Notes under the pieces: generated by a model
The model's database searches: none
What the model saw: the letters and a program-made list of their open reading frames with translations, nothing else
What the model was told of the DNA's origin: nothing
Part shown: in pieces, positions 22,968 to 29,319 of the stretch
Position numbering within the stretch: the first letter of the stretch is position 1
Layout: each line of letters begins with the position of its first letter
Program-made: the position numbers and the translations under genes
NCBI RefSeq assembly: GCF_000297055.2
Contig: NC_022357.1
Location: 992,001 to 1,056,000, forward strand
Direction: 5' to 3'
Length of the DNA: 64,000 bases
Origin: Sulfuricella denitrificans skB26
GTDB lineage: Bacteria; Pseudomonadota; Gammaproteobacteria; Burkholderiales; Sulfuricellaceae

Positions 22968-23356
22968 CTAAGGCAGGGGTGCCAAGGCGGAAACTTTTTC
23001 CAGCAACAAGTCGGCCACTTGGACGAGTTCCTTTACTAGTTGTTCATCGATTTCCAGGTGTCCTTCGTATTCCGCAAGGTTGCGGCGCTCATGGCACAGC
23101 GCCAATATCCGCCAATGCGCTGGGCCAAAATCCAGCGTATGTTGCAGACATTGAAAAACAATGTAACGATTTTCCGAGCGGTAGCCATGCCAGCGCAAGG
23201 CCGCCAGTGCCAGAGCATGGGAAGCGTTTCTATATGCGCATCTTTCAGCCGCGCGCAGGCGGAACGTACCAAGCCGTCGAATTCCTTCCGACTTGGTGCT
23301 TCCGCTTTAAGCTGGCCGGTCTTTGCCAGATTCGCCAGGTTTTGGGAGGTCATCAT
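22968..23356 (-). pseudogene. Frameshifted HEPN-like partner of the MNT regulator
   Basis: Two minus-strand frames together encode one broken protein. The first (from 23356) reads MTSQNLANLAKTGQLKAE...GLVRSACARLKDAH and then leaves frame. The second continues from about 23215 with NASHALALAALRWHGYRSENRYIVFQ, then ALCHERRNLAEYEGHLEIDEQL, and stops at 22968. From memory of the family, the intact protein has about 17 further residues at the junction, so a small out-of-frame deletion near 23210-23240 is inferred. The start overlaps the 3' end of the MNT gene, the normal order of this pair. A sequencing error alone would not explain the missing residues. Confidence 0.72.
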
Positions 23357-23936
23357 CCGCTCCAATTAAATATATCTTCGGCTGTTCCAGTGTCCGTAGC
23401 AGAAAATCACTGCCATCCAAAAGTTTGCGTTTGAATTCATCCGGACTATAAACAGTCGGGTTAATGGCACGGCCGATTTGGCTTTCCGTTTGAGCCAGAC
23501 AAGAAAACACATCGGCATAAGACAAATTTTCACCAATCACCATCACGTCAATATCACTACGTGCAGTATCGCTGCCCTTGGCGATCGATCCATAAATGAA
23601 AGCAGCGCGGATGCTGTTTATCAAAGGGGCCAATGCTTCACGCAACACATCTGCCACGCCGAAAGTTTTCAAGACAATACCGCGCAGTTCCTCGAAAATC
23701 GGCGATTGACGATCAGCCTGGTAGTGCTTCTGGTTGCCGATCTTCGTTACCGAAAGCAGCCCGGCTGCTGTCAGCTTTTCCAGTTCCCGTTGAACCGCAC
23801 CCGTACCAGCGCCTGCGAAGCGGACGATTTCATTCGCGTAGTAACTTCTGTCCGGATTACCGAACAGCAGCCCGACTACGCGCTGCTGCGTTTTTGTGAA
23901 TAAGGCATCTGAAAGGCTGGATTTAGTCGTTCCCAT
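23307..23936 (-). CDS. Winged-helix protein with MNT nucleotidyltransferase domain
   Basis: 209 residues from ATG 23936; in-frame starts at 23957 and 23972 would translate through the operator-like repeats and are less likely. The N-terminal winged helix reads TKTQQRVVGLLFGNPDRSYYANEIVRFAGAGTGAVQRELEKLTAAGLLSVTKIGNQKHYQAD. The C-terminal minimal nucleotidyltransferase has GSIAKGSDTARSDIDVMV, the complete GS-x10-DxD motif. In HEPN/MNT modules the MNT protein silences the HEPN RNase, in known cases by AMPylation. Here the downstream HEPN-like gene is broken, so this protein may have lost its partner. Confidence 0.87.
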   Translation of the reverse strand: MGTTKSSLSDALFTKTQQRVVGLLFGNPDRSYYANEIVRFAGAGTGAVQRELEKLTAAGLLSVTKIGNQKHYQADRQSPIFEELRGIVLKTFGVADVLREALAPLINSIRAAFIYGSIAKGSDTARSDIDVMVIGENLSYADVFSCLAQTESQIGRAINPTVYSPDEFKRKLLDGSDFLLRTLEQPKIYLIGADDDLPKPGESGKDRPA

Positions 23937-23965
23937 ATAGGGAATGATAATACCCATTAAGGGAA
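23930..23965. promoter_or_regulatory. Paired operator-like palindromes at the MNT gene start
   Basis: ttcccatatagggaa (23930-23944) is a perfect palindrome-type site. tacccattaagggaa (23951-23965) is the same site with one arm mismatch, starting exactly 21 bp further, two helical turns. Site 1 overlaps the proposed start codon. The winged-helix MNT protein is the obvious candidate binder. Confidence 0.7.
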
Positions 23966-24052
23966 TTATCAATATTTATGTGTTGTCGTGAAAGATAATC
24001 GGGGTACGTCACCTATTGTTAATGAAATAGTTCCTTCCCCATGCATATAAGT

Positions 24053-24092
24053 CCCCTCGCCCGCCTGCGGGAGAGGGTTAGGGAGAGGGAAG
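24053..24092. repeat. Pyrimidine/purine hairpin repeat
   Basis: ccctcgcccgc (24054-24064) and gcgggagaggg pair with one mismatch around a two-base loop, followed by ttagggagaggg. It resembles the hairpin at 9902-9926 and widespread extragenic repeats of this type. It lies between the MNT gene and the DUF4389 gene. Confidence 0.6.
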
Positions 24093-24122
24093 TAGTGAAT
24101 TCGGTGGTAATACAGGTCGGCG

Positions 24123-24395
24123 TTACGACGGCCAATCGATGAAAGGAAACGGCTTTTCCTCGGTATTGAAGGTTTGAAAGTTAACAATCTGTTGAACGTA
24201 GCTTCCCAGGCTGCGACCAAAGCTGAGCAGCCTGGTGTTGGGCGCACTGCCAATCAGAACAAGGATGAACTGCAGCAACACCACCACAAATAACACTGTC
24301 CCCGCCAAACTGTAGAGTATGCCGAACAGGATCATGAATACCCCGCGCAACCAGATGTTGTTTTCCGTGGATGCCTCGTTTCCCTGTTGTGTCAT
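24123..24395 (-). CDS. DUF4389 family membrane protein
   Basis: 90 residues with one long hydrophobic region (about 16-50: WLRGVFMILFGILYSLAGTVLFVVVLLQFILVLI), probably two tight membrane helices. NTRLLSFGRSLGSYVQQIVNFQTFNTEEKPFPFIDWP follows. The N-R-L-L-x-F-G-R-S-L-x-x-Y-V-x-Q-I and E-K-P-F-P-F segments are the DUF4389 signature. The function is unknown. It is monocistronic, and the vapBC-like pair diverges from it. Confidence 0.85.
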   Translation of the reverse strand: MTQQGNEASTENNIWLRGVFMILFGILYSLAGTVLFVVVLLQFILVLIGSAPNTRLLSFGRSLGSYVQQIVNFQTFNTEEKPFPFIDWPS

Positions 24396-24537
24396 CGCTG
24401 CCTACGCGCGCCTTCTTGATATCAAAATATAGACGTTTGCTGAATATAAGGATCAAAGTAAATCAATATTAAGGCCGATTCATTTGATTGGTTTAAGTTG
24501 AAAATGGCTCAGTGGATTTATTGCCAGTTGTGATATA

Positions 24538-24551
24538 TGATATGCATATCA
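24538..24551. promoter_or_regulatory. Perfect 14-bp palindrome upstream of the vapB-like gene
   Basis: tgatatgcatatca is fully self-complementary and lies 20 bp before the antitoxin start. Ribbon-helix-helix antitoxins bind such short palindromes, so this is a likely autoregulatory operator. Confidence 0.65.
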
Positions 24552-24571
24552 AAATCATCAAGGAAAACGCT

Positions 24572-24784
24572 ATGCGTACATTGGTCGATATCCCAGACAG
24601 GCAGATCAAGGATTTGACGGCGATATGCGAAGCCGAGAAGATTTCTCGTGCTGAAGTCGTCCGTCGGGCAATTGCTGATTACCTGGAAAAGAAAAAGCCG
24701 AGTGCCGCTGAGGCGTTCGGTCTCTGGAAGGATCACAAGATAGATGGGTTGGCCTATCAAGAGCAGGTTCGTTCTGAATGGTAA
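24572..24784 (+). CDS. Ribbon-helix-helix antitoxin (VapB-like)
   Basis: 70 residues from ATG 24572, preceded by aaggaaa; an upstream in-frame start at 24512 runs through the operator and is rejected. MRTLVDIPDRQIKDLTAICEAEKISRAEVVRRAIADYLEKKK is a ribbon-helix-helix fold (beta strand then two helices). The C-terminus AFGLWKDHKIDGLAYQEQVRSEW is the toxin-binding tail. The downstream PIN toxin start overlaps its end by 7 bp, so translation is coupled. Confidence 0.88.
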   Translation: MRTLVDIPDRQIKDLTAICEAEKISRAEVVRRAIADYLEKKKPSAAEAFGLWKDHKIDGLAYQEQVRSEW

Positions 24785-25143
24785 GCGCCCTATTTGATAC
24801 CAATATACTGGTCGACTATCTCAATGGGATCGAACAGGCAAAGACTGAGTTGGACAGATACACCGACAAAGCCATCAGCCTGATAACCTGGATGGAAGTC
24901 ATGGTGGGCGCAACGCCAGAAACCGAAGCAATCATTCAGAATTTTTTGGGTACCTTCGTCAACCTGCCTATAGATGAGCAGGTCAGCCATTTGGCCGTGG
25001 CACTCCGCAAGAAACACAAAATCAAATTACCGGATGCCATCGTGTGGGCAACGGCTCTGGTGCACAAAAGAATACTGGTCACGCGGAACACGAAGGATTT
25101 TTCGAAGGACGAACCCGGCATTCGTGTCCCGTATCAAATTTAA
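24778..25143 (+). CDS. vapC: VapC-type PIN-domain toxin
   Basis: 121 residues. Acidic PIN residues are visible: ALFDTNILVDYLNG (first Asp), ITWMEVMVGA (Glu), KLPDAIVWATAL (Asp) and LVTRNTKDFSK (Asp). This is a full active-site set for a magnesium-dependent RNase, which in VapC toxins cuts tRNA or rRNA. It overlaps the antitoxin gene by 7 bp. Base composition is lower in GC than the core genes, consistent with acquisition. Confidence 0.92.
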   Translation: MVSALFDTNILVDYLNGIEQAKTELDRYTDKAISLITWMEVMVGATPETEAIIQNFLGTFVNLPIDEQVSHLAVALRKKHKIKLPDAIVWATALVHKRILVTRNTKDFSKDEPGIRVPYQI

Positions 25144-25371
25144 AATTGAAACCTCAGTTGGACAAGTTGAAGTGTGCGGTTTTTGGGGCGCATGGCAAGG
25201 CGTAATGACGATGAATGGTATTTCATACAATTGGTTACAACGAAAAAATGGGTGATCGCTGGCAATGAATGTTTGCCCATATCTATCAATATCTTCTACT
25301 GTCTATCGTAATTTAGTTAGATATTTTCTCAGGCAGCAGTTGTTCCGCTAGTTGAATATGCGGCTAAACTG

Positions 25372-26232
25372 ATGGTGCCGCAACTCAACCTAAGGGAAAA
25401 GGCGCAAACGGTTGGTGTCGTTTTAGCGCCGCAAGACATTATGACCACAAGCCGCTGGAGCAAAGAACAACTCAAGCTCGCATTCCATCTTTATTGCCAA
25501 CTACCTTTTGGAAGGTTGCACAGCCGAAACCCGGAAATTATCCAGCTTGCCAAACTAATTGGGCGAACACCCGGTGCGGTAGCGATGAAACTCGTGAATT
25601 TTGCCAGCCTTGACCCGGCAATCACCAGCACAGGGCGCGCGGGTTTGGGTAATGCTGGCTCACTTGACAAAGAAGTTTGGGCTGAATTTCATGCCGGCTG
25701 GGAAAAGCTCGCGCTTGAATGCTCTCAGTTAAATGTTCAACTCCGCAAAGAGAAGGGAGCCGAAGCGGTTGTTGAATTGGACGTTACCGAGCAAGAGGGA
25801 CTCCAAGATTTTACTGGTGAGACAAAGCGAGTGGTGACCGAACAGCGGATTAAGCAACACTTCTTCCGGCGTGCGGTGCTGAGTAGCTATCGGGGGCGGT
25901 GCTGCATATCTGGCCTTTCGGATGCGCGCTTGCTGATGGCAAGCCACATCGTGCCGTGGAGTAACGACAAAGAAAATCGGCTTAATCCCAGCAATGGCCT
26001 ATGTCTTTCTCCCATCCACGACAAAGCATTTGATCGCGGGTTGATAACGATCTCTGGTGATTATGAGGTGATGTTGTCCGAGCAACTAAAGCAGAATGAT
26101 GATGCCTTTGTTGCCCAGATATTTCTGCCATTGGAAGGACGGAGGATTGAACTGCCAGAAAGATTTATTCCGAGCATCGCGTTTCTTTCTCGTCATCGCA
26201 ACGAGATATTTATTGATGCCGCAGGACAATAA
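25372..26232 (+). CDS. HNH endonuclease family protein
   Basis: 286 residues from ATG 25372; a later ATG (25441) is possible, and neither has a clear ribosome site. An N-terminal domain (about 24-110) reads SRWSKEQLKLAFHLYCQLPFGRLHSRNPEIIQLAKLIGRTPGAVAMKLVNFASLDP, a helix-turn-helix-like module. The C-terminal HNH domain has FFRRAVLSSYRGRCCISGLSDARLLMASHIVPW and NPSNGLCLSPIHDKAFDRG, with the expected His, Asn and His. It is probably a modification-dependent or defence nuclease. There is no methyltransferase nearby. Codon use is AT-richer than the chromosome core. Confidence 0.85.
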   Translation: MVPQLNLREKAQTVGVVLAPQDIMTTSRWSKEQLKLAFHLYCQLPFGRLHSRNPEIIQLAKLIGRTPGAVAMKLVNFASLDPAITSTGRAGLGNAGSLDKEVWAEFHAGWEKLALECSQLNVQLRKEKGAEAVVELDVTEQEGLQDFTGETKRVVTEQRIKQHFFRRAVLSSYRGRCCISGLSDARLLMASHIVPWSNDKENRLNPSNGLCLSPIHDKAFDRGLITISGDYEVMLSEQLKQNDDAFVAQIFLPLEGRRIELPERFIPSIAFLSRHRNEIFIDAAGQ

Positions 26233-26640: not shown

Positions 26641-27055
26641 TACCGGGATTGGGTAAAACTCAGATAACACCGGCATTTCTCAGGCCGCGTAATAACCAGT
26701 GGGTATTACACTGAAATATTAGGGTCGTAGTCTAACTAGAGTGGCAGCTCAGCCTCGCAATATTCCTTGAAGGAGCAACTTCCCGGGTTTACGACCGTGA
26801 CCGGGACCGGGACATTCCGGAAGGCCCAAAAGCAGAAACCCGTTTCAGCTTTTTCTCGCCGGAACGGGTTCCTGTGTTTACTCCGCTTTAGCAGGATTTA
26901 TTAAGCGCCCTGCAATCTGTTAGCTTCTTTATTTCAAATCGGCGCTTCACGTTTTAAAATTAGCACAGATTTTAAGAAGTGCAAATTTTCGAATAAAAAT
27001 TTTTTGCGGGTTGAGTAGCCTCTGGGCGGCTGCTTTAAATGGAGGCGGGGGGAGA
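26641..27055. other. 415-bp intergenic region with a hairpin and a tmRNA-like repeat
   Basis: No gene was seen. aacccgtt (26837-26844) pairs with aacgggtt (26863-26870), a long-loop hairpin between two converging genes. The stretch 26930-27010 is AT-rich. At 27040-27053 tggaggcgggggga exactly repeats 28950-28963 inside the tmRNA 3' end. Confidence 0.55.
27040..27053. repeat. 14-bp copy of the tmRNA 3' end, possible att-like scar
   Basis: tggaggcgggggga occurs here in direct orientation with 28950-28963, the acceptor and T-arm part of the tmRNA gene. It lies two bases before the fic stop codon (27056). Tyrosine-recombinase islands often use the ssrA 3' end and leave such a partial copy at the far end. 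No integrase is present. Confidence 0.4.
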
Positions 27056-28204
27056 TCAACGAGTCAGTAGCTCGATGTACGGCTGGTAGCTGTAATTTCG
27101 GTTTTTCTTCTGGCCGGTCATTTCGGTGACGATACCGAGATCCTCGAGCATCTTGACGGCCGCATTCGCTGTCGGGAAAGTCGTGTCCAGCATCTGTCTC
27201 ACCCGCTCGATGGTGAAGCGGGGCATCATCGGCAGTTGTTCAAACAAACGGTAGCTGGCGGGGCCGGCCTTGGGCGATCCTAGCAAGCGGCGCCGGTCTG
27301 CCGCCACCAGGCTGGCGATGGCGATGATGCTGCCCTCAGCTTCAGTGGCTGCGGCTGTTACCCCCTCCAGGAAAAAACTTACCCAGGCTTCCCAATCACC
27401 CTCGGTGCGGATGATCGAAAGTCGCCGGTAATACTCTGCTTGATGCTGCTTCAAATAGCCGCTCAGGTACATCAATGGTTCGGGCAGCAAGCCCCAGTAC
27501 TCCAGCAGCGCGGTGATCAGCAGGCGGCCGATGCGTCCGTTGCCGTCCAGAAATGGGTGGATGGTTTCGAACTGTGCGTGTACCAGCGCAATTTTCACGA
27601 GTGGTTGGAAAGCAGGCAATGGACCGTGTATGAATTGCTCCAGATTGCTCAGCAGCTTGGGCACTTGATCGGCTGGTGGCGGTACAAAGGCGGCGTTGCC
27701 CGGACGGGTACCGCCAATCCAGTTTTGTGAGCGCCTCAGCTCACCGGGTTGTTTGCCAGCTCCCCGCACTCCATCAAGCAGCAAGCGGTGGGCCTCGCAC
27801 AGTAGGCGAACGCTGATGGGCAAGCCGTTGGGGGCACGCAGGTTGTCTTGCACCAGTCGGAAGGCGCGCAGGTAGTTGGTGACTTCTTCCACATCATCCG
27901 TGTTGCTGACCGCGAAACCTGCTTCCTCGTCGAACAAGTCGGTCAGCGTGGCCTGTGTCCCCTCGATTTGCGAGGTAAGCAAGGCTTCCTTGCGTATCGC
28001 GCTGTACAGCAACCAGTCCACCGACGGCACCAGCCCCGACACTCCGGACAGACGGGCTAGTGCCAGTTCCGCCAGGCGGTTGTGCTCGATAAACGCGTCC
28101 GGCGCAAGCGCAGGATTGGCGGGTGGGAGAGGATGTGGAACGAAAGCCTGGACAGGCTCGCCCAGAGTCGTCGAGATGACATACGTTCCTGTAGATCGCA
28201 CCAT
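27056..28204 (-). CDS. Fic family protein with N-terminal inhibitory motif
   Basis: 382 residues. The Fic core is HPFLDGNGRIGR (216-227), complete for AMP transfer to hydroxyl side chains. The inhibitory helix motif TSQIEG (77-82) matches the S/T-xxx-E-G/N rule and lies N-terminal to the core, as in class II Fic proteins, so activity is normally held off. A C-terminal winged helix is suggested by LFEQLPMMPRFTIERVRQMLDTTFPTANAAVKMLEDLGIVTEM. Target proteins are unknown. Three palindromes just upstream suggest that this winged helix binds its own promoter. Confidence 0.92.
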   Translation of the reverse strand: MVRSTGTYVISTTLGEPVQAFVPHPLPPANPALAPDAFIEHNRLAELALARLSGVSGLVPSVDWLLYSAIRKEALLTSQIEGTQATLTDLFDEEAGFAVSNTDDVEEVTNYLRAFRLVQDNLRAPNGLPISVRLLCEAHRLLLDGVRGAGKQPGELRRSQNWIGGTRPGNAAFVPPPADQVPKLLSNLEQFIHGPLPAFQPLVKIALVHAQFETIHPFLDGNGRIGRLLITALLEYWGLLPEPLMYLSGYLKQHQAEYYRRLSIIRTEGDWEAWVSFFLEGVTAAATEAEGSIIAIASLVAADRRRLLGSPKAGPASYRLFEQLPMMPRFTIERVRQMLDTTFPTANAAVKMLEDLGIVTEMTGQKKNRNYSYQPYIELLTR

Positions 28205-28206
28205 GG

Positions 28207-28284
28207 TAAAGACCTCTTTAAACTGATGTTTTAATATTAAAGCATTCTTTAGTACTCAGCGCAACAATTAAAGAACTCTTTAAT
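28207..28284. promoter_or_regulatory. Three 31-bp-spaced palindromes upstream of fic
   Basis: The 14-bp sites taaagacctcttta (28207), taaagcattcttta (28238) and taaagaactcttta (28269) follow the rule TAAAGA-NN-TCTTTA, with one mismatch in the middle site. Starts are exactly 31 bp apart, about three DNA turns, so a regulator would bind all three on one face. The first site begins 3 bp from the fic ATG. Confidence 0.82.
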
Positions 28285-28369
28285 AAAAATCAGTGGGTCT
28301 ACTTTTGACGTGAAGGCGGAGGATTGCCCGTCTTTCGCGCGTCATCCGCGAAAGCTGTTTCCCTGCTAC

Positions 28370-28870
28370 TTATTTGCCACTATCCCAACGCTCGAACCAG
28401 TCGGTCAACGCGCGGCTTTCGCCAAGGCCGGCGAGCCGGTGGTCAATGGCATCGTGATTGCCCCAAACCACGTTCGCCAAGGCACCATCGGCTACGCGGG
28501 ATTCGATGTCGTGGCAATAAAGCCCCAGGTCGCGCTGCACGTAGAAGCCGTAGGTGCGGCATGCCACCGGTCGCTGGGTGTAGACAGGGCAGGAGCCGGT
28601 AGCAAGGTCCAGCAGTGGGCAGGTGATGGGGGGCGACCGCTGGCCGGATAAGACGGCCATGTTCCCGCGGATTTCCTGGAGTCGTTCTGGCGGTAGGGCT
28701 GCCAAGCCCTCGCGCAGCAAGTCCCATTCTGCTGCCGTCAGTTGCGGTATGTCGGCGAGCCGCCGACAACAACCGTCGCAGCCCTTCCCGCACAGCCAGT
28801 CGGAACGATTCTCCCGGATGGTTTGTACGCGCACATCAATGTCGACATGGAGGTGGGTTAGAGTGGTCAT
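28370..28870 (-). CDS. YkgJ family cysteine-cluster protein
   Basis: 166 residues. The N-terminal cluster WLCGKGCDGCCRRLADIP has Cys spaced CxxxCxxCC. The later CPLLDLATGSCPVYTQRPVACRTYGF adds three more, the usual YkgJ layout thought to bind zinc or an iron-sulfur cluster. The P-V-A-C-R-x-Y-G segment is the strongest signature. Function in the family is not established. The gene lies between fic and the tmRNA gene, all on the minus strand. Confidence 0.9.
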   Translation of the reverse strand: MTTLTHLHVDIDVRVQTIRENRSDWLCGKGCDGCCRRLADIPQLTAAEWDLLREGLAALPPERLQEIRGNMAVLSGQRSPPITCPLLDLATGSCPVYTQRPVACRTYGFYVQRDLGLYCHDIESRVADGALANVVWGNHDAIDHRLAGLGESRALTDWFERWDSGK

Positions 28871-28906
28871 ATTTATTTACGTTAGTTCGTTCCCATTTGC
28901 CCACCA

Positions 28907-28946: not shown

Positions 28947-29319
28947 TGGTGGAGGCGGGGGGAATCGAACCCCCGTCCGCAAGCCCTCTACAGGCAGTTC
29001 TACATACTTAGTCCGATTATTTGATTTCGCCCGAATTACGCCAACCGAACAGGCTGAATTCACGCTAGTTGCCTTAAGTTTAGTATCGGTTCAAGCAACC
29101 CGGACCGACACGAGTCTCTGTTAATGACTCTGCTCTTGTTACCTTGCGGCTTCAAGCCGGCCCAGAGACCAACCGGTGCAGAGTCTAACCGGCAATTAAG
29201 CGGCTAGAGCGTAGTTTTCGTCGTTTGCGACTAGTTTTTTTCAGATGGATTTACGAGGTAACTGAGCCTCGGTATGCCCTACGCTGCTTTGCAACCCACG
29301 TCGAAACCGGGTCGCCCCC
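28947..29319 (-). ncRNA. ssrA: tmRNA (ssrA)
   Basis: About 373 nt. The 5' end GGGGGCGACCCGGTTTCGACG and the 3' end, a T-arm GGTTCGA followed by CGCCTCCACCA, form the tRNA-like acceptor stem with seven pairs (one G-U). The tag frame at 29196-29228 reads ANDENYALAA then TAA, a typical betaproteobacterial degradation tag ending in LAA. Pseudoknot-like paired segments follow the tag. tmRNA rescues stalled ribosomes with SmpB, whose gene is not in the window. The terminator at 28907-28940 follows directly. Confidence 0.96.

Follow-up and report, generated by a model that had tools for sequence, protein, structure and literature searches.

The window, i.e. the whole 64,000-nucleotide stretch of the Sulfuricella denitrificans skB26 genome that was analysed, contains a fic gene preceded by three short palindromes (Table 1). 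Pfam recognised the Fic_N and Fic domains of its product with E-values of 2.7e-21 and 5.5e-21, respectively. Class II Fic proteins are characterised by the active-site pattern HPFx[DE]GN[GK]R and the N-terminal inhibitory pattern [ST]xxxE[GN]. Both patterns are matched in our protein, by HPFLDGNGR and by TSQIEG; residues D220, G221, G223 and R224 of the former as well as E81 and G82 of the latter are invariant in 58 aligned Fic proteins. The best PDB match was 7cb8 (1.6e-34), followed by SoFic entries such as 3eqx (1.2e-30), and the SoFic chains align with our protein up to residue 380, i.e. through the C-terminal domain. The PADLOC SoFic model (PDLC03963) matched it with an E-value of 5.1e-111, and the NCBIfam score of 136.3 bits lies under the SoFic equivalog cut-off of 550 bits, hence the protein is called SoFic-like here and not SoFic itself. 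A loose sequence-similarity search of 53 close loci returned no widely shared antitoxin-like small gene of the EcAS1 kind downstream of fic; the largest set of shared downstream reading frames comprised four other loci of the 53, and these frames begin inside the end of fic.

Table 1. Features of the fic locus (positions are those of the window)
Feature	Position	Strand	Sequence	Remark
Fic gene, 382 aa, class II SoFic-like	27056..28204	-		Fic_N PF13784 + Fic PF02661
Inhibitory-helix motif, residues 77-82	27959..27976	-	TSQIEG	translation
Fic active-site motif, residues 216-224	27533..27559	-	HPFLDGNGR	translation
Recognition-helix region of the C-terminal winged helix, residues 338-355	27140..27193	-	around FPTANAAVKMLED	inferred placement
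Putative operator P3, adjoining fic	28207..28220		TAAAGACCTCTTTA	overlaps Shine-Dalgarno-like AAAGAGG
Putative operator P2, central	28238..28251, extended 28236-28253		TAAAGCATTCTTTA	best-conserved site in relatives
Putative operator P1, farthest from fic	28269..28282		TAAAGAACTCTTTA	position kept in relatives
Everted half-site pair bridging P3/P2	28216..28242		CTTTAAA-N13-ATTAAAG	1 mismatch
Everted half-site pair bridging P2/P1	28247..28273		CTTTAGT-N13-ATTAAAG	1 mismatch to CTTTAAT-N13-ATTAAAG
Unit of fic + operator array, ~1.28 kb	27050..28324	.		absent from same-genus genome G010

The original prediction had described three palindromes with a single mismatch in total and an exact 31-bp phasing, and both statements hold: scanning the window with TAAAGANNTCTTTA returned P1 and P3 without and P2 with one mismatch, and their starts are 31 and 31 bp apart, which corresponds to 2.95 helical turns of 10.5 bp. 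The P1 copy extends to ATTAAAGAACTCTTTAAT (28267-28284) with arms of 8 nt, and P3 ends 2 nt before the ATG, since the start codon of fic is at 28204 on the minus strand. No further match with up to two mismatches was found elsewhere in the 64-kb window. The mere number of such matches is not extreme (0.81 expected; at least three in 4 of 100 shuffles); the remarkable part is that near-perfect copies are found inside 76 bp and equally spaced. P1 and P3 are the only exact copies of TAAAGANNTCTTTA in the whole 3.2-Mb genome, and up to one mismatch is found at seven places, three of them here, compared to 12 for a reversed-pattern control. Outside the window, two 1-mismatch copies are situated 20 bp apart at C1:1113419-1113452 of the same genome (L005, L006). 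A strict scan did not find a sigma-70 promoter here, and a -35 element upstream of the right half of P2 (TTTAAT) had no better support than at shifted anchors, so that the place of the promoter is only presumed.

To analyse the conservation of the array, loci were collected from three sources. Named genomes gave the best 80 of 583 confirmed loci, and 61 near genomes gave 30. Of 369 genomes of the class, 76 had a match at 1e-60, which added 40 further stretches; of the 51 class-genome matches without a locus, 40 were taken in and 11 were left out as short, cut off, weak or containing stops. For the first two sources, 94 of the 97 listed loci were used, and 31 bp scored best as the lag between like palindromes in 60.8 of these promoters (ties split), whereas no lag exceeded 3.1 in shuffles; a best lag within 29-33 bp was found in 68.3 promoters versus 10.7 in shuffles. 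Altogether, a three-palindrome array with lags of 29-33 bp precedes fic in 61 of 143 promoters at a protein identity of at least 40%. This set includes the window's own promoter and keeps near-duplicates; the threshold is the highest score among 143 shuffled promoters, one shuffle each. The neighbouring lag classes 24-28, 34-38 and 39-43 yielded only 0, 3 and 8 arrays among the same 143 promoters, and merely 2 of 412 control windows passed the threshold. Arrays were detected in 44/51 promoters at 70% identity or more, 4/4 at 57-70%, 11/30 at 47.5-57%, 2/37 at 43-47.5% and 0/21 at 40-43%, leaving 7 close relatives and, in the three lowest bands, 19, 35 and 21 promoters below the threshold. Because the frequency drops with protein identity in this way, the three-palindrome array is, judged from these promoters, a trait of a Fic subfamily. 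Above-threshold arrays upstream of fic came from records named as proteobacteria, Planctomycetota and Verrucomicrobia. A search with L082 as query in 398 genomes gave 18 matches besides the window's own (L193 and L195-L211, with L195 and L205 repeating earlier loci), one of which, L193, had an above-threshold lag-31 array. Among the more distant members, many are organised differently, for instance with a 41-bp period, direct 8-mer repeats being 41 bp apart in 15 of 94 promoters (1.3 expected). The distant relatives L107, L113, L100 and L109, for example, have a period of about 41 bp or a mixed 31/41 one, together with a recurring 23-bp everted spacing.

The individual half-sites are conserved to different extents. 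In 46 non-redundant close relatives, the two half-sites of P2 match ATTAAAG at 6.63 and 6.72 of 7 positions, the inner halves of the outer palindromes at 5.70 and 5.91, and their outer halves at 5.20 and 4.93. Inner halves are better conserved than outer ones (Wilcoxon p 1.4e-5; p 0.049 for the upstream palindrome alone), with p 0.078 for the same comparison in 13 distant arrays; the downstream outer half-site overlaps the start region. These 46 promoters remained of 52 after removing six near-identical ones, and the 52 came from 59 loci after leaving out L087, L110, L120, L072, L078, L067 and L079.

The half-site itself varies as well, from ATTAAAG in close relatives to AGTAAAG/T, GTCAAG, GGAACG or AAGC-type half-sites in distant ones. 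It was compared with the protein in 52 arrays that remained after thinning at a protein identity of 93%. Base 2 of the half-site is T in all 39 arrays whose Fic protein has F or Y at residue 343, and it is not T in any of the 13 arrays without F/Y at this residue. On a quick tree calculated without the winged helix, both traits change twice each and the two independent pairs agree (2/2), i.e. too few events for a sign test on the association of operator and helix. In the 12 distant arrays, the distance between operators is tracked by the recognition helix (Spearman 0.672; 2 of 5000 permutations) but not by the catalytic domain (0.022; 2020 of 5000 permutations), and the top 6 of 370 13-residue segments along the Fic protein start at residues 338-343. 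Over all 52 arrays, catalytic domain and helix perform equally (0.755 and 0.741; partial correlations 0.421 and 0.373, each reached in 0 of 2000 permutations), because both follow the tree, and the same is seen in the 40 closer arrays (0.439 and 0.432). Hence, the contrast between helix and catalytic domain comes from the 12 distant arrays only. The scan along the protein in these 12 arrays is the strongest evidence that the sites are read by Fic itself.

Gene and array are also missing together in a species of the same genus. In the same-genus genome G010, the counterparts of window positions 26818-27049 and 28325-28876 are directly adjacent (L189), thus representing an empty site, and no fic match at E 0.001 was found in that genome; G011 (L188) likewise lacks the unit at the same place and has 41 bp there. 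This empty site indicates that fic and array are one single-gene insertion in the present lineage or a clean loss in others. It lies beside a gene for a CxxCxxCC-domain protein. The stretch 26782-26989 downstream of fic is matched a second time in G010, with 90% identity, across this CxxCxxCC gene (L189:1076-1278), although the genome of the window has just one copy of it. A 14-nt exact direct repeat of the 3' end of the tmRNA gene occurs just past the end of fic (27040-27053) and at 28950-28963. An ssrA attachment site was dropped as unproven, the 14 nt being absent from the empty site of G010; the repeat may be a former attachment site or a coincidence. Relatives of the protein were found in 154 of 72,556 plasmid records at E <=1e-60, 15 of them at 60-80% identity, and in 5 of 50,697 phage records at E 1e-20, all below 60% identity. 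Furthermore, the neighbourhood at 23310-26232 appears defence-like, since PADLOC models match a protein at 23310-23972 (candidate PDC-M05A) and an HNH endonuclease at 25372-26232 (PDLC04132), and a ribbon-helix-helix/PIN pair resembling a toxin-antitoxin system lies between them (24542-25143).

Taken together, we consider it highly probable (roughly 0.87) that the three palindromes are the Fic protein's own operators and serve its negative autoregulation. Direct binding and repression are what we infer from the sequence comparisons, and the same applies to cooperativity, low fic expression and the location of the promoter. Fic dimers would dock via their C-terminal winged-helix domains on the ATTAAAG half-sites, and once the three same-face sites are filled, the presumed core promoter and ribosome-binding region would be covered and transcription switched off. 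A potentially toxic SoFic-type AMP-transferase could thereby be held low, and fic with its operators would form one self-contained unit. The original prediction had proposed that the Fic protein may be its own regulator and had named a lack of the sites in relatives as its refutation. This refutation fails, as they do recur upstream of fic there (61/143 promoters; 44/51 at 70% identity or more), and array conservation together with the co-variation of operator and recognition-helix region makes the proposal well supported at the level of sequence. The prediction as a whole is partly supported, its other half being the conjecture that enzyme state may be coupled to transcription.

A possible, although rather doubtful, variant concerns the binding unit. 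Fic dimers may bind the everted pair CTTTAAT-N13-ATTAAAG and not the palindromes, so that a dimer would span two adjacent palindromes and each palindrome would be the junction of two dimers. A chain of toxin dimers on the promoter would silence the gene and at the same time store the enzyme, perhaps restrained in its activity. The centres of the everted half-sites are 20 bp or ~66 A apart, and a similar distance of 70.2 A separates the DNA-binding helices in the CccR dimer according to the consulted sections of PMC9755527, which suggests such an interleaved layout, with mixed support. With up to one mismatch, the two everted pairs at our locus are the only ones among the genome matches listed. 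Spacings were compared in 145 of 158 promoters, with L087, L110, L120 and L072 among those left out. Among relatives, the junction spacing (AAAG to CTTT) is 8 or 18, a helical turn apart, and an everted spacing of 23 (CTTT to AAAG) recurs; the mutually similar L100, L109 and L115 have both junction spacings. In sub-threshold promoters at 43-57% identity, 23 is the top everted peak (13/51, 0.1 expected), and junctions of 18, 12 and 8 occur in 9, 6 and 6 of them. The junction is 18 in 8 of the 14 everted-23 carriers listed from this identity range, while L084, L094, L101 and L142 have 8 and not 18, some of these being two-palindrome promoters of the type present in the window. When the core was [AT]AAG, 23 was the leading spacing in 30 earlier promoters, with 11 cases against 0.3 expected, and took second place in 68 later ones, with 7 against 0.7.

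Other spacing data are mixed or speak against the everted unit. For the later loci L118-L186 (<57% identity), 23 is again the top peak with the AAAG core, yet in just 5 of 61 promoters, two of which (L122, L123) are lag-31 arrays themselves, which weighs against the interleaved layout. Two other cores gave top everted peaks at 20 and at 31 in these later loci; 23 was absent from the leading everted peaks of two further cores, and no everted 23 peak was found at 36-43% identity. In close relatives, the inner spacing of the palindromes is more rigid (8 in 40/48, 7 in 5) than the everted spacing (23 in 31, 22 in 7), and conservation remains good even in the outer half-sites (5.20 and 4.93 of 7); both points count against an everted unit.

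A separate host regulator, e.g. a MarR- or Rex-like repressor that binds the palindromes and thereby silences an acquired gene, is an improbable alternative to autoregulation by Fic. Many regulators typically bind short AT-rich palindromes, which suits this explanation, and the assignment of Fic as binder is itself an indirect one. However, a host factor does not easily account for fic-upstream arrays in records from proteobacteria to Planctomycetota and Verrucomicrobia, or for a half-site that changes together with Fic's own recognition-helix region. Moreover, the motif is not enriched elsewhere in the genome (four other 1-mismatch places, control 12), and the empty site shows that array and gene are present or absent together. 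Control at the RNA level appears very improbable. Here, the palindromes would act as hairpins in the mRNA leader that mask the ribosome-binding site, in line with the overlap of P3 with the Shine-Dalgarno-like sequence. But folding of the leader is unexceptional (z -1.44, with equal or better folding in 18 of 200 shuffles), the arms of each 14-nt palindrome are just 2 nt apart, and Rfam at the gathering threshold yields the tmRNA alone; on the folding and Rfam results this explanation was rejected. The fixed 31-bp lag and bases tracking the winged helix are, furthermore, traits of DNA operators. Finally, chance similarity or iteron-like repeats without regulatory meaning are practically negligible and were rejected, since the stretch is indeed AT-rich relative to its flanks but its near-perfect copies are evenly spaced, conserved in a lag-specific manner across relatives (61/143 promoters, 2/412 controls) and positioned just upstream of one gene family.

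The preferred reading, autoregulation by Fic through its own operators, touches the question of what keeps a solitary toxic gene quiet when no antitoxin is evident, SoFic-type Fic enzymes being candidate phage-defence toxins. With a triple operator that is linked to its gene and co-varies with the recognition helix, self-silencing can be tested directly in many species. The matched protein and DNA variants represent a natural set for working out the recognition code and whether DNA-bound Fic is on or off.

Among known systems, the SoFic/Sofic anti-phage family (PDLC03963; EcSofic, PMC12249575; SoFic, 3EQX) shares the domain layout of our protein. In the consulted sections of PMC12249575, the C-terminal domain of EcSofic is described to influence its toxicity, and wild-type EcSofic was unclonable behind one lac operator but clonable behind three. 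The terms 'transcription', 'DNA-binding' and 'winged' occur 0 times in the main text as covered by our word search. The Sofic-AS1 pair includes the small downstream gene EcAS1, whereas our Fic type has no widely shared one in 53 close loci. CbFic2 of Coxiella burnetii, another class II Fic protein, has an HTH domain that binds DNA, and this binding stimulates its (de)AMPylation; random DNA was used there, and the sections consulted show neither an operator nor autoregulation (PMC10628234).

A functional precedent is CccR of Yersinia pseudotuberculosis, a Fic toxin with a C-terminal HTH that represses its own promoter. According to the sections consulted, its C-terminal part binds this promoter, the DNase I footprint covering inverted repeats, and repression needs the dimer (PMC9755527). 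CccR (PDB 7XUX) is homologous to our protein (E 2.6e-16), yet distant (63 bits versus 123 for 7cb8), and the same sections of PMC9755527 present it as an effector secreted by a T6SS. CccR protects one pair of boxes, AGATAATCAT-N26-ATGATAATCT, as given in the same source; the window has three 14-bp palindromes at 31 bp, and two inverted 10-bp boxes 26 bp apart do not describe its array. The open-licence literature, among the matches listed, did not yield a description of an operator array upstream of SoFic-type genes. The principle of a self-repressing Fic protein is known from CccR, while the architecture of a conserved triple array with 31-bp spacing, a possible interleaved layout and the co-variation of the array with the protein are apparently new.
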